Source of the DNA: Nevskia sp.
GTDB taxonomy: Bacteria > Pseudomonadota > Gammaproteobacteria > Nevskiales > Nevskiaceae
NCBI GenBank assembly: GCA_031291075.1
Contig: JARLJS010000025.1
Span: 1 to 38,348, forward strand
Direction of reading: 5' to 3'
DNA: 38,348 nucleotides
Of this stretch, positions 22,189-28,394 are shown piece by piece. Below the pieces are notes generated by a model. It worked only from the letters and a program-made list of their open reading frames with translations. It had not been told where the DNA came from and did no database searches. Position 1 is the stretch's first letter. Every line of letters starts with the position of its first letter. The position numbers were made by a program, and so were the translations under genes.

Positions 22189-22617
22189 GAGAAGGCCGCC
22201 GGACGGGCGCAGAATATCCATATTCCGCCACAGCTTGGCGGAAGCATATTCATGACACGGCAGAGCTGAACGATGGACAGCATGAGAGTGTCGCAGGCCA
22301 CGCGCACCGCCCCGGGCGTTTCCGGGCCGGGGTGTTGTCGTCCCTGCCATTCCCGCCATCCCGTTCCCGAGAGCTCCCGCCATGAATCCGCAGCGTCGTT
22401 TATCCCCCAAATTCGCCACTAGTCCAGCACTCTTCGAACCGCGCGTTCGGATTCCGGCCTCGGCACGCGGCGCGGGCTTTGCGCCGGCGGGCCGTGGCGT
22501 CCGCCCGCCGGGTGGTTCCGGTTCGCGGCTCCGGCCGCACCTATCATTCCCCAGGCGGCGACCCGGCAACGGGCTGCCGCCGCAGCGGCCCGGCAGCCGG
22601 GTCATGAGGTGACCGTC
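22189..22617 (+). other. Non-coding stretch before cysE with hairpins
   Basis: About 430 bases without a convincing gene. It holds a near-palindromic cluster GAATAT-CC-ATATTC (22212-22225) running into a TTCCGCCA/TGGCGGAA stem (22223-22243). Close to cysE there is a stem GGCGGC/GCCGCC (22554-22581) with an inner CCCG-GCAA-CGGG hairpin capped by a GNRA-type loop, then CCCGG-CAG-CCGGG (about 22589-22601) directly before the ribosome site GAGGTGA. The last two could form a structured leader. No promoter is clear. A 76-codon open frame at 22382-22612 has no family look and is not called. Confidence 0.5.
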
Positions 22618-23436
22618 ATGTTCTCCCGCATCCGAGAAGACATCCGTTCCGTGTTCGACCGCGACCCGGCGGCACGCTCCACCTGGGAGGTCCTCACCTG
22701 CTACCCGGGCCTGCATGCCGTGTGGGGCCACCGTGTCAGCCACGCGCTGTGGCAGCGGGGCTTCAAGTGGCTGGCACGGGTGAATTCCAACGTCACGCGC
22801 CTGGTCACCGGCATCGAGATCCACCCGGGCGCCACCATCGGCCACCGTTTCTTCATCGACCACGGCATGGGGGTGGTGATCGGCGAGACCGCCGAGATCG
22901 GCGACGACGTCACCCTGTACCAGGGCGTGACGCTGGGCGGGGTGAGCTGGAACAAGGGCAAGCGCCATCCCACCATCGGCAACAACGTGGTGGTGGGCGC
23001 CGGCGCCAAGGTGCTGGGCCCGTTCACGGTGGGCGAGGGTGCGCGCGTCGGCTCCAACGCGGTGGTGGTGAAGGAGGTGCCCGCCGGCGCCACAGTGGTG
23101 GGCATCCCCGCCCGGCTGGTGCAGGAGCCGGCGCAGCCTTCGGAGAAGGTGGTGGCCATCGCCCGCTCGCTGGGCTTCGACGCCTACGGCCTCACCCGCG
23201 ACATGCCCGACCCGGTGGCCAACGCCATCGGCTCGATGCTGGAGCACATCCAGGTGCTGGACGAGCGGCTGGTGCAGGTGTGCAAGCTGCTGCACCAGAT
23301 GGACTCGCGCATGCCCGAACTAGAGCTGTCCAAGCTCGAGCTGCCGGATTTCTGCGGCGAGGGGCTGGCCGGTGCGCCCAGGCGTGAGGCGGCGCCGGAG
23401 CCGGGTGCCGATGCCAAGGTGCGGCGAGTGGGCTGA
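22618..23436 (+). CDS. cysE: Serine O-acetyltransferase
   Basis: Makes O-acetylserine from serine and acetyl-CoA, the committed step of cysteine synthesis; 272 residues. An N-terminal helical domain (to about 65) leads into a left-handed beta-helix of hexapeptide repeats ([27 protein letters not shown]...). The active-site histidines are in the DHGMG region and the GVTLGG...GKRHPTIG segment of the family. A C-terminal extension of about 80 residues after the hexapeptides is longer than in E. coli CysE and follows the longer CysE type seen beside isc genes. The ATG at 22618 has GAGGTGA 5 bases upstream, which decides the start over the GTG at 22609. It is placed directly before the cysteine desulfurases that use its product. 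Confidence 0.96.
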
Positions 23437-23539: not shown

Positions 23540-23575
23540 CTTGATCTTGCCTGCTTCTGATCCTGGTTGATCGCC

Positions 23576-24724
23576 ATGCCGATTTACTTCGACCATAACG
23601 CCACCACTCCGCTCGATCCGCGGGTGCTGGAGGCGATGCAGCCGTACCTGGCCGGGCCCTACGGCAACCCGTCCAGCCTGCACCGCTACGGCCGCGCCGC
23701 GCGCGACGCCGTGGAGGCGGCGCGCGCGCAGGTGGCGGCGCTGGCCGGCGCGCAGCCGGGCGAAGTGGTGTGGACCTCTGGCGGCACCGAGTCCGACAAC
23801 CTGGCGCTGCAGGGCGCCACCGAGGGTCAGCGGCCGACGCGGGTACTGTACGGCGCCACTGAGCATCCGGCCGTGCTGGAAACGGCGGAAGCGCTGCGCG
23901 GGCATGGCTGGGTGGTGGAGACCATCGCCATCGACGGCGACGGCCTGGTCGACTGGCCGGCGTTCGAAGCGCAGCTCGCGCGCGGCCCCCTCCGCATCGC
24001 CGCGCTGATGGCGGCCAACAACGAGACCGGCGTGATCCACGACGTGGGGCGCGCCGCCGGGTTGGTGCGCGCCGCCGGGTTGGTGCGCGCCGCCGGCGGT
24101 CTGCTGCTGTGCGACGCGGTGCAGGCGGCCGGCAAGATCCCGCTCGACTTCGCCGCCTGCGGCGCCGACCTGATGAGCCTGTCGGCGCACAAGCTGTACG
24201 GACCCAAGGGCGTCGGCGCCCTGCTGCGCAAGGCCGAGGTGGAGCTGGCGCCACTGCTGCATGGCGGCGGCCAGGAACGCGGCCTGCGCGGCGGCACCGA
24301 GAACGTGGCCGGCATCGTCGGCTTCGGCGCCGCCGCCGAGCTGGCGCGGACCGGGCTGGAAGCGCGCGCGGCGCACTGCCTGGCGCTGCGGGAGCGCCTC
24401 GCCGCCGGCCTGCACGGCCTGCCGGGCGTCACCATTTTCGGCGAGCGCGCGCCGCGCCTGCCCAACACCCTGCAGTTCGCCCTGAAGGGCTGGGAAGGGG
24501 AGGCGCTGCTGATGGCGTTGGACCGCAAGGGCATCGCGGTGTCCAGCGGCTCGGCCTGCTCCAGCGGCAAGGGCGAGCCCAGCCACGTGCTGCTCGGCAT
24601 GGGCCTGCCGCGCGACCTCGCCTACGGCGCCATCCGCGTCAGCCTGGGCCAGGACAACACCGCTGCGGAGATCGACCGCTTCCTGGTGGTGCTGGCGGAG
24701 CTGCGCATGGCTGCCGCCGCGTGA
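23576..24724 (+). CDS. Cysteine desulfurase, first of two
   Basis: PLP-dependent NifS/IscS-type desulfurase, 382 residues, moving sulfur from cysteine to an enzyme cysteine persulfide. The PLP lysine is K206 (SAHKLYGPKG), the ATEHPAV histidine is present, and the catalytic loop is SSGSACSSG (C328). It is clearly less similar to E. coli IscS than its neighbour (FDHNATTPLD start, shorter insertions) and is closer to NifS-like group-I enzymes. An in-frame 18-base tandem repeat at 24049-24096 adds a repeated AAGLVR hexapeptide around residues 160-173. The ATG at 23576 is chosen over a TTG at 23567. The next desulfurase starts 10 bases after its stop. Confidence 0.95.
   Translation: MPIYFDHNATTPLDPRVLEAMQPYLAGPYGNPSSLHRYGRAARDAVEAARAQVAALAGAQPGEVVWTSGGTESDNLALQGATEGQRPTRVLYGATEHPAVLETAEALRGHGWVVETIAIDGDGLVDWPAFEAQLARGPLRIAALMAANNETGVIHDVGRAAGLVRAAGLVRAAGGLLLCDAVQAAGKIPLDFAACGADLMSLSAHKLYGPKGVGALLRKAEVELAPLLHGGGQERGLRGGTENVAGIVGFGAAAELARTGLEARAAHCLALRERLAAGLHGLPGVTIFGERAPRLPNTLQFALKGWEGEALLMALDRKGIAVSSGSACSSGKGEPSHVLLGMGLPRDLAYGAIRVSLGQDNTAAEIDRFLVVLAELRMAAAA
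24049..24096 (+). repeat. 18-bp in-frame tandem repeat inside the first desulfurase
   Basis: Two full and one partial (12-base) copies of an 18-base unit encoding AAGLVR, at 24049-24066, 24067-24084 and 24085-24096. The copies are identical at the DNA level, so the duplication is recent or kept uniform by slippage. It lies in the helix region before the PLP-site strand, where the family normally has a single helix turn. Confidence 0.9.
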
Positions 24725-24734
24725 GCCGCAGCCG

Positions 24735-25904
24735 ATGATCTACCTCGACTACGCCGCCACCGCGCCGCTCGACCCGAACGCACTCAAGGCCATGCTGCCG
24801 TTCCTGCGCACCGACAGCGGTTTCGCCAACCCGGCCTCGGCGCACGGTCCGGGGGTGCAGGCGCGCAACGCGGTGGAGGCCGCGCGGGCGCAGGTGGCGG
24901 CGCTGATCGGCGCCGAGCCCAACGAGATCGTATGGACCTCCGGCGCCACCGAGTCCAACAACCTGGCGCTGAAGGGCGCCATCGAATTCCGCGGCCTGCG
25001 CAGCGCTCACATCGTCAGCGCGCGCACCGAGCACAAGTCGGTGCTGGACAGTTGCCGGCACCTGGAAACCGTGGGCGTGCGCGTCACCCTGCTCAAGCCG
25101 GATGCCGACGGTCTCGTTTCGCCGGAGCAGGTGCTGGAAGCGCTGCGCCCCGACACCACGCTGGTCTCGCTGATGTGGGTCAACAACGAGATCGGCGCGG
25201 TGCAGGAGGTGCAGCGGTTGGCGCCGCTGCTGCGCGAGCGCGGCGTGCTGTTCCACGTCGACGCGGTGCAGGGCGTGGGCAAGCTGCCGCTGGACCTGCG
25301 CAGCACCCCGATCGACCTGCTGTCGGTGTCGGCGCACAAGCTGTATGGTCCCAAGGGCATCGGCGCGCTCTATGTGCGGCGCAAGCCGCGCGCGCGCCTG
25401 GCGCCGCAGATGCACGGCGGCGGCCACGAGTGGGGCATGCGTTCCGGCACCCTGCCCACCCACCAGGCGGTGGGCATGGGGGTGGCCTGCGAGGTCGCCG
25501 CGGCGCGGCTGCGGGTCGACGCCGAGCGCCTTGGCGGCCTGCGCGAGCTGATGTGGCAGTGCCTGCAGGTGCTGCCGCGCATCCACCGTAACGGCCCGGC
25601 GGAAAGCGGCAACACGCGCCGCGCGCCGCACGTGCTCAACGTCAGCTTCGAGGGCGTGGAGGGCGAATCGCTGCGCGCGGCACTGCCGCAACTGGCGGTG
25701 TCCAGCGGCTCGGCCTGCTCATCGGCGACGCAGGAGCCGTCCTACGTGCTGCGCGCGCTCGGGCGCGACGACGAACTGGCCAACGCCAGCCTGCGGTTTT
25801 CGTTCGGCCGCGGCACCACGGCCGAGCACGTCGAGCTGGCGGCGCAGATGGTGATCAGGCAGGTGCAGCGACTGCGTGAGCTCTCCCCCCTATGGACAGC
25901 GTGA
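24735..25904 (+). CDS. iscS: Cysteine desulfurase IscS-type, second of two
   Basis: 389 residues, closely following E. coli IscS: YLDYAATAPLDP start, TSGATESNNLA, TEHKSVLD, PLP lysine K202 (SAHKLYGPKG), RRKPRARLAPQMHGGGHEWGMRSGT, catalytic C328 in SSGSACSSATQEPSYVLRALG. It ends at LRELSPLWTA: the roughly 17 residues that follow SPLW in E. coli IscS, part of the IscU contact region, are missing. The stop lies 13 bases inside the next gene, which encodes the divergent IscU-like protein, so the two are translationally coupled. Persulfide transfer to an IscU-like or IscA partner is the likely role; tRNA thiolation partners may also use it. Confidence 0.95.
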   Translation: MIYLDYAATAPLDPNALKAMLPFLRTDSGFANPASAHGPGVQARNAVEAARAQVAALIGAEPNEIVWTSGATESNNLALKGAIEFRGLRSAHIVSARTEHKSVLDSCRHLETVGVRVTLLKPDADGLVSPEQVLEALRPDTTLVSLMWVNNEIGAVQEVQRLAPLLRERGVLFHVDAVQGVGKLPLDLRSTPIDLLSVSAHKLYGPKGIGALYVRRKPRARLAPQMHGGGHEWGMRSGTLPTHQAVGMGVACEVAAARLRVDAERLGGLRELMWQCLQVLPRIHRNGPAESGNTRRAPHVLNVSFEGVEGESLRAALPQLAVSSGSACSSATQEPSYVLRALGRDDELANASLRFSFGRGTTAEHVELAAQMVIRQVQRLRELSPLWTA

Positions 25905-26308
25905 TCCCCTCCGAGACCAACCCGTTCGGCTACCCCGAAACGATCTGGCGCCTGTTCCAGGAGACGCCCCGCGCGGGCGGGTTCCCCCCGGATACGGAGG
26001 GCGTGGTGACCGGCGAGGCCGGCAGCCATGCATCGCGCGCGGTGCTGCGCCTGCAGCTCCGCTTCGACGAAAAGGGCCGCGTCGCCGACGCCCGCTTTCG
26101 CGCCTACGGCTGCCCCAGCACTATCGCCGTCGGCGCCTGGATCGCCGGCTGGTGCCTCGGCAAGACCGCGTTCACCCTGTCCGGCCTGCAGTCCGCCGAC
26201 CTGCGGCAAACCCTTGAAATTTCTTACGATCGGGCCCATTGTGCGATGGTGGGCGAGGACGCCTTGCGCGCCGCCCTCGATCGCTATTCCGGAGAGCAGA
26301 AGACATGA
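25892..26308 (+). CDS. Divergent IscU-like scaffold protein
   Basis: 138 residues that align well with IscU/NifU-N through ARFRAYGCPSTIAVG (C74, matching E. coli C63) and AHCAMVGEDALRAA (C117, matching C106). At the first ligand block, GAPACGDVMKLQI of E. coli IscU reads GSHASRAVLRLQL here, so Cys37 becomes Ser48 and Asp39 becomes Ala. The HscA-recognition LPPVK before the last cysteine reads ISYDR. An extra cysteine, C88, lies in AGWCLG. It may be a carrier, a regulator or a scaffold with altered ligands; classical IscU chemistry cannot be assumed. It overlaps the IscS stop by 13 bases and the iscA start by 4 (ATGA). Confidence 0.88.
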   Translation: MDSVIPSETNPFGYPETIWRLFQETPRAGGFPPDTEGVVTGEAGSHASRAVLRLQLRFDEKGRVADARFRAYGCPSTIAVGAWIAGWCLGKTAFTLSGLQSADLRQTLEISYDRAHCAMVGEDALRAALDRYSGEQKT

Positions 26309-26628
26309 GCATTGCCCTGACCGAATCCGCCGCCCGCCGCATCCAGGCCCAGCTGGCCAGCCGCGGCAAGGGTCTGGGCCTGCGCGTAGGGGTGAAGAAA
26401 TCCGGCTGCTCGGGCTATGCCTACACCCTCGACTACGCGGACGCCGCCGGCCCGGAGGATGCCGTGTTCGAATCCAATGGCGCCAGCGTGGTGGTGCGGC
26501 GCGACCACCTGGCTATGCTGGACGGCCTCACCGTGGATTTCCAGCGTGAGGGCCTCAACGAGGCCTTCAAGTTCCGCAATCCCAACATCAAGGGTGAGTG
26601 CGGCTGCGGCGAGAGCTTCGCCGTCTAG
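26305..26628 (+). CDS. iscA: Iron-sulfur cluster assembly protein IscA
   Basis: A-type Fe-S carrier, 107 residues, the same length as E. coli IscA and very close to it. The three ligand cysteines are C35 in KKSGCSGYAY and C99/C101 in ECGCGESF. GLNEAFKFRNPN is intact. It binds iron or a cluster and passes it to target proteins, working with the IscU and IscS partners encoded just upstream. The start overlaps the IscU-like stop by four bases. After its stop the usual hscB-hscA-fdx genes are absent, and ndk follows 133 bases later. Confidence 0.96.
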   Translation: MSIALTESAARRIQAQLASRGKGLGLRVGVKKSGCSGYAYTLDYADAAGPEDAVFESNGASVVVRRDHLAMLDGLTVDFQREGLNEAFKFRNPNIKGECGCGESFAV

Positions 26629-26761: not shown

Positions 26762-27193
26762 ATGGCGCTCGAACGCACACTCTCCATCATCAAGCCCGAC
26801 GCGGTCGCGAAGAACGTGATCGGCGCGATCTACGGCCGCTTCGAGAAGGCCGGCCTGCGGGTGGTCGCGGCGCGCATGACCCACCTGACCCGGGCCGAGG
26901 CCGAGGGCTTCTACGCCGTGCACCGCGAGCGCCCCTTCTTCAAGGCGCTGGTGGACTTCATGATCACCGGCCCGGTGATGATCCAGGCGCTGGAGGGCGA
27001 GAACGCGATCGCCGCCCACCGCGATCTGATGGGCGCCACCGACCCGAAGAAGGCCGCGCCCGGCACCATCCGCGCCGACTTCGCCGACTCCATCGACGAG
27101 AACGCCGTGCACGGCTCCGACAGCGCCGAGAACGCGGCCAAGGAGATCGCCTATTTCTTCCGCGCCACCGAAGTCTGCCCGCGCACCCGTTGA
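26762..27193 (+). CDS. ndk: Nucleoside diphosphate kinase
   Basis: Transfers the gamma phosphate of ATP to nucleoside diphosphates through a phosphohistidine; 143 residues, the standard bacterial length. The catalytic histidine is H117 in ENAVHGSDS. The N-terminal [12 protein letters not shown], the Kpn-loop region and the C-terminal [12 protein letters not shown] are intact. It is followed at once by rlmN, as in pseudomonads and relatives, where ndk separates the isc block from rlmN-pilF. Confidence 0.98.
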
Positions 27194-27209
27194 GGTGCTG
27201 CAGCCGCCC

Positions 27210-28394
27210 ATGACCGCCGTGGCCGCAGGTACTACAGCAGCCGATGCCCCCGCCGCGGTAGCGGCGAGGGCATCGGCTGCGCCGGTCAACCTGTTCGGGC
27301 TGGACCGCGAGCGGCTGCGCGAAGAGTTCGCGCGCATGGGTGAGGCGCCCTACCGCGCCGACCAGGTGATGCAGTGGATCTACCGCCGGGGCGTCGACGA
27401 CTTCGACGCCATGAGCAATCTCGGCAAGGACCTGCGCGCACGCCTGACGCAGCGCTTCGTGATCCGTCCGCCCGAGCTGGTGGCGGAGCAGGTGTCGGCC
27501 GACGGCACCCGCAAGTGGGTACTGCGGCTGGACCCTGGCGAGGCCGGCGGCAAGGCCGTCGCCGGCACCGCGATCGAGACGGTCTACATCCCGGAGGCCA
27601 ATCGCGGCACCCTGTGCATCTCGTCCCAGGCCGGCTGCGCCATGGACTGCAGCTTCTGCTCCACTGCGCAGCAGGGCTTCTCGCGCAACATGACCACCGC
27701 CGAGATCGTGGCGCAGGTGTGGTTCGCCGCCAAGACGCTGGGCGGCGATTTCCAGAACGATCGGGTGATCTCCAACGTCGTCTTCATGGGCATGGGCGAG
27801 CCGCTGGCCAACTATGGCAACGTGCTGCCGGCCCTGAAGATCCTGCTCGACGATTTCGGCTTCGGCCTGTCCAAGCGCAAAGTCACCGTCTCCACCTCGG
27901 GCCTGGTGCCGTTCATCGACCGCCTGCGGGAGGACGTCGACACGGCCCTGGCGGTGTCGCTGCATGCGCCCAACGACGCGCTGCGCGACGAGCTGGTGCC
28001 GATCAACCGCAAGTACCGCATCGCCGAGCTGATCGAGGCCTGCCGCCGTTACACCGGCGGCAAGGACCGCAAGACCCATATCGTCTACGAGTACGTCATG
28101 CTGGACGGCGTCAACGACCGCCCCGAGCACGCCCGCGAACTGGCCCGCCTGCTCGGCGGCATGCCGGCCAAGGTCAACCTGATCCCGTTCAACCCGTTTC
28201 CACGCACGCAGTACCGGCGTTCCTCGCCGGAAGCGATCCAGCGTTTCGCCGAGATCCTCCGCGCCAAGCACATCATGACCACCACCCGCCGTACCCGCGG
28301 TGACGATATCGATGCTGCGTGTGGGCAACTGGTCGGCCAGGTGCAGTCCCGGCAAAAGCAGCGTCTGCGCGATATTCCCGTTAAAGTGGTGTAA
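27210..28394 (+). CDS. rlmN: Dual-specificity 23S rRNA/tRNA C2-adenine methyltransferase RlmN
   Basis: Radical-SAM enzyme methylating A2503 of 23S rRNA and A37 of some tRNAs; 394 residues. The 4Fe-4S ligands are C143, C147 and C150 (GCAMDCSFC). C136 in TLCISSQ and C371 near the C-terminus match the resolving and methyl-carrying cysteines of E. coli RlmN. The N-terminus before VNLFGLDRERLREEF is an Ala-rich extension of about 25 residues. Its codons form a 20-base-arm hairpin (27237-27280). The ATG at 27210 is the likely start, with a GTG at 27195 also in frame. The stop TAA shares its last base with the pilF ATG. Confidence 0.96.
   Translation: MTAVAAGTTAADAPAAVAARASAAPVNLFGLDRERLREEFARMGEAPYRADQVMQWIYRRGVDDFDAMSNLGKDLRARLTQRFVIRPPELVAEQVSADGTRKWVLRLDPGEAGGKAVAGTAIETVYIPEANRGTLCISSQAGCAMDCSFCSTAQQGFSRNMTTAEIVAQVWFAAKTLGGDFQNDRVISNVVFMGMGEPLANYGNVLPALKILLDDFGFGLSKRKVTVSTSGLVPFIDRLREDVDTALAVSLHAPNDALRDELVPINRKYRIAELIEACRRYTGGKDRKTHIVYEYVMLDGVNDRPEHARELARLLGGMPAKVNLIPFNPFPRTQYRRSSPEAIQRFAEILRAKHIMTTTRRTRGDDIDAACGQLVGQVQSRQKQRLRDIPVKVV
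27237..27280. repeat. 20-bp-arm hairpin inside the 5' coding region of rlmN
   Basis: Arms 27237-27256 and 27261-27280 are reverse complements with a single mismatch around the tetraloop GGTA. The hairpin begins about 27 bases downstream of the rlmN ATG, within codons for the Ala-rich stretch that precedes the conserved domain. It may be an inserted palindromic repeat that kept the frame, or a stem controlling early elongation. Confidence 0.85.

Follow-up and report, generated by a model that had tools for sequence, protein, structure and literature searches.

IscU is the textbook scaffold of iron-sulfur cluster assembly, and its ligand cysteines and aspartate are treated as indispensable. The window (the whole 38,348-nucleotide stretch of Nevskia sp. 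DNA that was analysed, contig C121 of its draft assembly) raises the question of what an IscU homologue may be doing once several of these residues have gone. The gene concerned, designated here iscU*, occupies the position expected in an isc locus, between iscS2 and iscA and upstream of ndk-rlmN (Table 1), and its 138-residue product is homologous to E. coli IscU across nearly its full length. It scores 66.2 bits against Pfam NifU_N (cut-off 22) and 68.7 bits against the NCBIfam iscU model TIGR01999, far under the curated cut-off of 192.4. Both an alignment made with HMMER against E. coli IscU (chain 2l4x) and one made with MAFFT place S48 at C37 and A50 at D39, and I110-S-Y-D-R114 stands in place of L99-P-P-V-K103, as a preliminary description of this DNA had proposed. 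They also bear out its claim that the other two ligand cysteines persist (C63 as C74 and C106 as C117), and add that H105 is retained as H116. IscU* hence has two of the three ligand cysteines, no counterpart of Asp39 and no LPPVK motif for HscA, with the basic residue K103 surviving as R114; in the IscU* of the family, Glu or Asp predominates at position 101 and Asp at 102.

Table 1. Genes of the isc-like locus and its neighbours in the window.
Feature	Coordinates	Strand	Evidence
CysE-like serine acetyltransferase (presumed name)	22609..23436	+	ORF; recurrent neighbour
IscS1, NifS-like cysteine desulfurase	23567..24724	+	TIGR03402 400.3 bits (under the cut-off of 530.75); Aminotran_5; SSGSACSSG active-site loop
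IscS2, IscS-type cysteine desulfurase (catalytic His, Lys and Cys present)	24735..25904	+	PDB search: E. coli IscS 460.6 bits
IscU*, degenerate IscU	25892..26308	+	NifU_N, TIGR01999, alignments
IscA, A-type carrier	26305..26628	+	TIGR02011 144.3 bits (cut-off 150.6); TIGR00049 112 bits (cut-off 58.8)
Ndk (presumed name)	26762..27193	+	First gene of recurrent downstream block
RlmN (presumed name)	27195..28394	+	Recurrent downstream block

The genes iscS1, iscS2, iscU*, iscA, ndk and rlmN follow one another on the same strand, with too little space 5' of iscS1 to accommodate iscR and too little in the iscA-ndk gap to accommodate hscB, hscA or fdx. The ATG of iscU* falls within the 3' end of iscS2, the two genes overlapping by 13 nt, and the 20 bases upstream of it contain no Shine-Dalgarno-like stretch; the start of iscA overlaps the iscU* stop. 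This arrangement suggests coupled translation. IscA carries the three cysteines of what we take to be its motif. Within iscS1, an in-frame 18-bp tandem duplication (24059-24094) repeats the peptide AAGLVR. The block trmJ, cysE, iscS1, iscS2, iscU*, iscA, ndk, rlmN and pilF recurs, whole or in part, across the order, with ndk-rlmN or iscS1 displaced in some genera.

A search of 117 genomes for the IscU-like protein returned a match in 89, including 56 of the 58 genomes of the window's family (misses G029 and G037) and 18 of the 27 from the rest of the order, where six of the nine misses have a weak NifU_N match. Genera with IscU* include Nevskia, Hydrocarboniphaga, Solimonas, Stagnimonas, Stenotrophobium and Sinimarinibacterium. 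None of the 56 family orthologues has C37 or D39 (one row is gapped at 39), and C63, H105 and C106 are held in 54, 53 and 55 of them. The pattern of ligand retention (C37 and D39 in 0/56, C63 in 54/56, C106 in 55/56) is beyond chance, and the degenerate IscU is a trait of the whole family and no private oddity of this genome. The preliminary description had asked whether such homologues always sit between an IscS and an IscA, which is true of most loci: IscU* has IscA after it in 55 of the 56 loci of the family (exception L050) and IscS2 next to it in 53, the exceptions to the latter being three loci of one genus, g5, in two of which, when examined, the preceding gene is one we take to be pyridine-nucleotide transhydrogenase-like.

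Outside the family the residues are less well kept. Among the 18 matches from the rest of the order, C37 is present in none, D39 in three, C63 in five, H105 in two and C106 in five; C37, C63, H105 and C106 are jointly lost in 13 and the gene stays in place, so that cysteine chemistry cannot be its function everywhere. One MAG of a family that may be Salinisphaeraceae (locus L072) keeps C63 and C106. A new cysteine appears at position 74 of E. coli IscU numbering in 16 of the 18 (L053, L054, L057, L078 and L080-L091), three of which still hold C63 and C106; it could possibly be a replacement sulfur site. The five degenerate loci found at class level all lack C37, and one keeps D39; a sixth, similar-looking locus (L109) was left out of the counts. 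Degenerate forms are found outside the order too, in genomes in which SUF is present and HscB absent: in two Castellaniella (L157, L158) position 37 is Leu or Val and position 39 Gln, with C63, H105 and C106 held, and a Comamonas MAG contig (L155, 1-1497) carries Ser and Ala at these two positions, its IscS and IscU sharing an open frame with iscA next in line. Three MAG records labelled Verrucomicrobia, Lysobacteraceae and Rhodospirillales (L120, L126 and L135) carry Nevskia-type loci and are probably mislabelled.

The genomic setting of these loci follows the state of their IscU. HscB was detected in 8 of the 117 genomes, none of them among the 85 of the window's order, a set that includes the window's own genome (the E. 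coli control was positive); SufB/D was detected in 105 of 117. Genomes with degenerate-IscU loci have HscB in 0/79 and SufB/D in 78/79 cases (exception G050), and those with canonical-IscU loci in 7/9 and 1/9, respectively; Fisher tests on this difference, which take related genomes as independent and leave out one genome with a NifU-like match and HscB (G115), give p = 5.7e-9 for HscB and 1.2e-9 for SufB/D. Fourteen genomes with a C37-less IscU, eight of them new to the count (the two Castellaniella and the Comamonas MAG among these), agree, with HscB in 0/14 and SufB/D in 14/14. A class-wide sample, of which the HscB tally alone is used, its NifU_N list mixing SufU with IscU*, has HscB in 166 of 370 genomes. 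In the window's genome, a suf regulator and sufB, sufC, sufD and sufS form an operon on contig C169, SufE and MnmA are present, and TusA gave no match in this one draft assembly (96.9% complete; control positive in 11/14). Its one other NifU_N match is SufU-like, and a second, canonical iscU was accordingly rejected. That match lies on contig C295 (L100, 1-4057), a 4-kb piece off the main suf operon that carries what we presume to be sufS-, sufU-, sufT- and sufA-like genes and CoA-transferase-like genes, and that is probably foreign to the draft assembly.

Substitution patterns indicate that iscU* is under purifying selection. Across 25 close pairs from 11 groups (Nei-Gojobori), dN/dS lies between 0.09 and 0.33 in 24, and the remaining pair, with almost no synonymous change (pS 0.01), gives 0.67; constraint is weaker than in IscS2 and IscA in most groups. 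Decay was rejected on these values, on residue conservation and on the intact frames. The preliminary description had named, as the outcome fatal to its reading, a canonical iscU/hscBA locus elsewhere combined with decay of this gene; the other match proved SufU-like and the gene bears no sign of decay.

The crystal structure of the E. coli IscS-IscU complex is reported to place Y3, Y11, G38, V40, K42, residues 59-64 and K103 of IscU in contact with IscS; the K103E change is reported to abolish IscS binding, and IscS without residues 376-404 to be unable to bind IscU (PMC2854127). All 56 family proteins have Tyr at position 3, Phe at 11, Arg or Lys at 103 and Gly at 62, whereas Gly38 is kept in three and Gly64 in none, being replaced by Pro in all 56. 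This conservation is consistent with IscU* docking on IscS2 at the old IscU site. The case for docking weakens outside the family, where Tyr stands at position 3 in four and a basic residue at 103 in six of the 18 proteins from the rest of the order.

All three catalytic residues of IscS2 (His, Lys and Cys) are intact in 81 of the 84 rows aligned; of the others, two are partial (L053, L086) and one is broken (L006). No IscS2 was found in loci L027 and L041. At the place of the broken row, the Nevskia MAG concerned has an in-frame stop at the catalytic Lys codon (L122, 5324-5326), which is either real or an assembly error. The window's IscS2 ends in LSPLWTA, without the C-terminal tail found beside canonical IscU. 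That tail follows SPLW in all seven canonical-IscU loci where IscS2 was found, and in none of the degenerate loci with a readable IscS2 end, L079 being a partial exception.

Open frames with a match (n = 91) comprise 79 with degenerate IscU, eight with canonical IscU, three NifU-like and one SufU-like, and in 24 of the 79 degenerate loci a single open frame spans IscS2 and IscU*. Of these shared frames, 22 come from the 56 family loci, one from the 18 elsewhere in the order and one from the five at class level (L092), where the IscU match is weak (16-17 bits) and the linker long. Pfam recovers both domains in all four shared frames examined, three from the family and one from the Comamonas contig. 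The frames join IscU* at the C-terminus of IscS, near which IscU is reported to bind in E. coli (PMC2854127), and lend indirect support to a physical complex. Mapped on a quick IscS2 tree (82 rows, SH-aLRT support only), the shared-frame state needs at least 11 changes, a count blind to the direction of gain or loss. It falls to eight without four loci that have an in-frame ATG in the linker, and to three, with three loci left, without linkers holding any ATG, GTG or TTG; one change is needed in each of three strongly supported clades, and shared frames with an intact enzyme are maintained in whole clades. Linkers free of all three codons number three in 24, and in-frame GTG or TTG is common in these GC-rich linkers, so the sequence leaves room for separate translation; a single IscS2-IscU* polypeptide is the putative product of the shared frames. 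One linker (L032) is rich in proline and glycine over a stretch that resembles an inserted repeat element.

The preliminary description had offered either a changed role (two-cysteine carrier, sulfur acceptor or regulator) or cluster assembly with other ligands, perhaps C88. The changed role is well supported, given the lack of an HscB match, the suf operon, the family-wide triple loss and purifying selection. C88 as a replacement ligand did not survive the comparison, being cysteine in just five of the 56 family orthologues. Of the remaining options the sulfur acceptor is the best, if unproven. In mitochondrial ISCU, iron is reported to be held by C35, D37, C61 and H103, and C104 to receive the persulfide (PMC8924461). 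These five correspond to C37, D39, C63, H105 and C106 of E. coli IscU, so that IscU* has lost two of the four iron ligands and kept the persulfide receptor with two neighbours. A retained receptor site, retained contacts and shared frames in a cell where SUF assembles clusters fit a sulfur acceptor or shield on IscS2. The reading we favour is that an ancestral isc operon was reduced to a remnant after SUF took over cluster assembly, and that IscU* would thereby have lost its scaffold role and become a dedicated subunit of IscS2, in some relatives seemingly as part of the same polypeptide. Within the family it would most likely accept or shield the IscS2 persulfide through C117, with C74 and H116 beside it, and then pass the sulfur to another user such as tRNA thiolation. 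The absence of a TusA match and the presence of MnmA in the one genome considered make tRNA thiolation a candidate client. Taken whole, this reading stands, in our judgement, about evenly between right and wrong; its footing in the data comprises ligand loss, residue conservation, gene neighbourhood and co-occurrence, shared frames and purifying selection, from which docking, persulfide acceptance, the client and a single polypeptide are inferred. Several observations count against it: mitochondrial persulfide transfer to ISCU is reported to be linked to a metal ion bound in part through C35 and D37 (PMC8924461), the contacts at G38 and G64 are mostly or wholly changed in the family, IscU* lies apart from IscS2 in genus g5, the four residues are lost together in 13 of 18 other order members, and there is no match in 2 of 58 family and 9 of 27 other order genomes.

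The 13 orthologues that stay in place without C37, C63, H105 and C106 are also the main support for a different account, in which IscU* is a cysteine-independent regulatory cap that blocks or biases the other partners of IscS2 and tunes the desulfurase, carrying no sulfur. E. coli IscU is reported to compete with TusA for IscS and to alter IscS activity (PMC11302665), and a shared frame would suit a permanent subunit of this kind. A pure cap, however, has no need of the C63, H105 and C106 kept by nearly all family members (54, 53 and 55 of 56), nor of the new cysteine at position 74 in most of the other order members, and this explanation appears possible but rather doubtful. The same three retained residues could instead make IscU* a reduced carrier, holding zinc or an Fe-S cluster on C74, H116 and C117 together with an outside ligand such as the catalytic cysteine of IscS2. 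In the human complex the catalytic cysteine of NFS1 reportedly replaces ISCU C35 on zinc (PMC8924461), so that loss of C35 leaves that place open, and IscA comes next in the operon. The loss of both C37 and D39, the absence of HscB, the presence of SUF and the poor conservation of the proposed extra ligand C88 nevertheless make a carrier unlikely.

That IscU* might be a decaying relic, held by operon position alone, could draw on ligand loss being heavier elsewhere in the order than within the family, on the genomes with no match and on a constraint weaker than that of IscS2 in most groups. It has to contend with low dN/dS in 24 of 25 pairs and intact frames, with the contacts at positions 3, 11 and 103, which all 56 family proteins keep, and with shared frames that retain an intact enzyme throughout whole clades, all of which render it highly improbable. 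With the preferred reading of IscU* as an IscS2 subunit and likely persulfide acceptor or shield thus placed among its alternatives, a broader and more speculative extension can be put forward, which we regard as improbable though worth stating: SUF takeover may repeatedly turn proteobacterial IscU into a permanent IscS subunit that has lost C37 and D39 and is often fused to IscS, so that the desulfurase would carry its own sulfur receiver, able to replace TusA in supplying tRNA thiolation.

Among the matches listed, no open-access title or abstract opening mentions, for these bacteria, either a fusion of IscS with IscU or an IscU without its ligands, exact IscS-IscU fusion phrases returned no open-access paper, and the accessible portions of papers on acidophiles and A-type carriers contain nothing on a degenerate IscU. 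That a family retains, under purifying selection, an IscU devoid of the first ligand cysteine and the aspartate, and that several of its branches have this IscU in one frame with IscS, points to a role of IscU at the desulfurase that does not require scaffolding and that canonical systems may also conceal. The IscU* proteins are natural separation-of-function proteins with which such a function can be tested, and they carry the warning that genes of this kind should not be annotated as cluster scaffolds.

Compared with known systems, IscU* resembles IscU of the E. coli type (TIGR01999, PF01592) in its near-full-length homology, in its place between iscS and iscA within the trmJ...ndk-rlmN block, and in C63, H105, C106 and several IscS contacts, and differs from it in the loss of C37, D39 and LPPVK, the absence of HscB, the missed TIGR01999 cut-off and an IscS partner without the C-terminal tail. 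SufU, described as a zinc-dependent persulfide carrier of SufS, offers the precedent of a NifU_N relative that acts as a desulfurase sulfur acceptor and not as a scaffold (PMC8593673), the role proposed here for IscU*. Unlike SufU, IscU* adjoins IscS2 and not SufS (the sufS gene lies on contig C169), and it has Ser48 and Ala50 in place of the first Cys and the Asp of the SufU site. The SufU-like gene on contig C295 keeps both residues, which we take to be C41 and D43 of the SufU zinc site. TusA has a fold unrelated to that of IscU. It provides a possible functional parallel as a small IscS sulfur acceptor that is reported to compete with IscU (PMC11302665), and differs in using another site on IscS (PMC2854127). 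A parallel at the level of the operon is Mycobacterium tuberculosis, for which a truncated ISC operon alongside a complete SUF system is described (PMC10848736); there iscS alone remains, whereas here a degenerate iscU and iscA have been kept with it.
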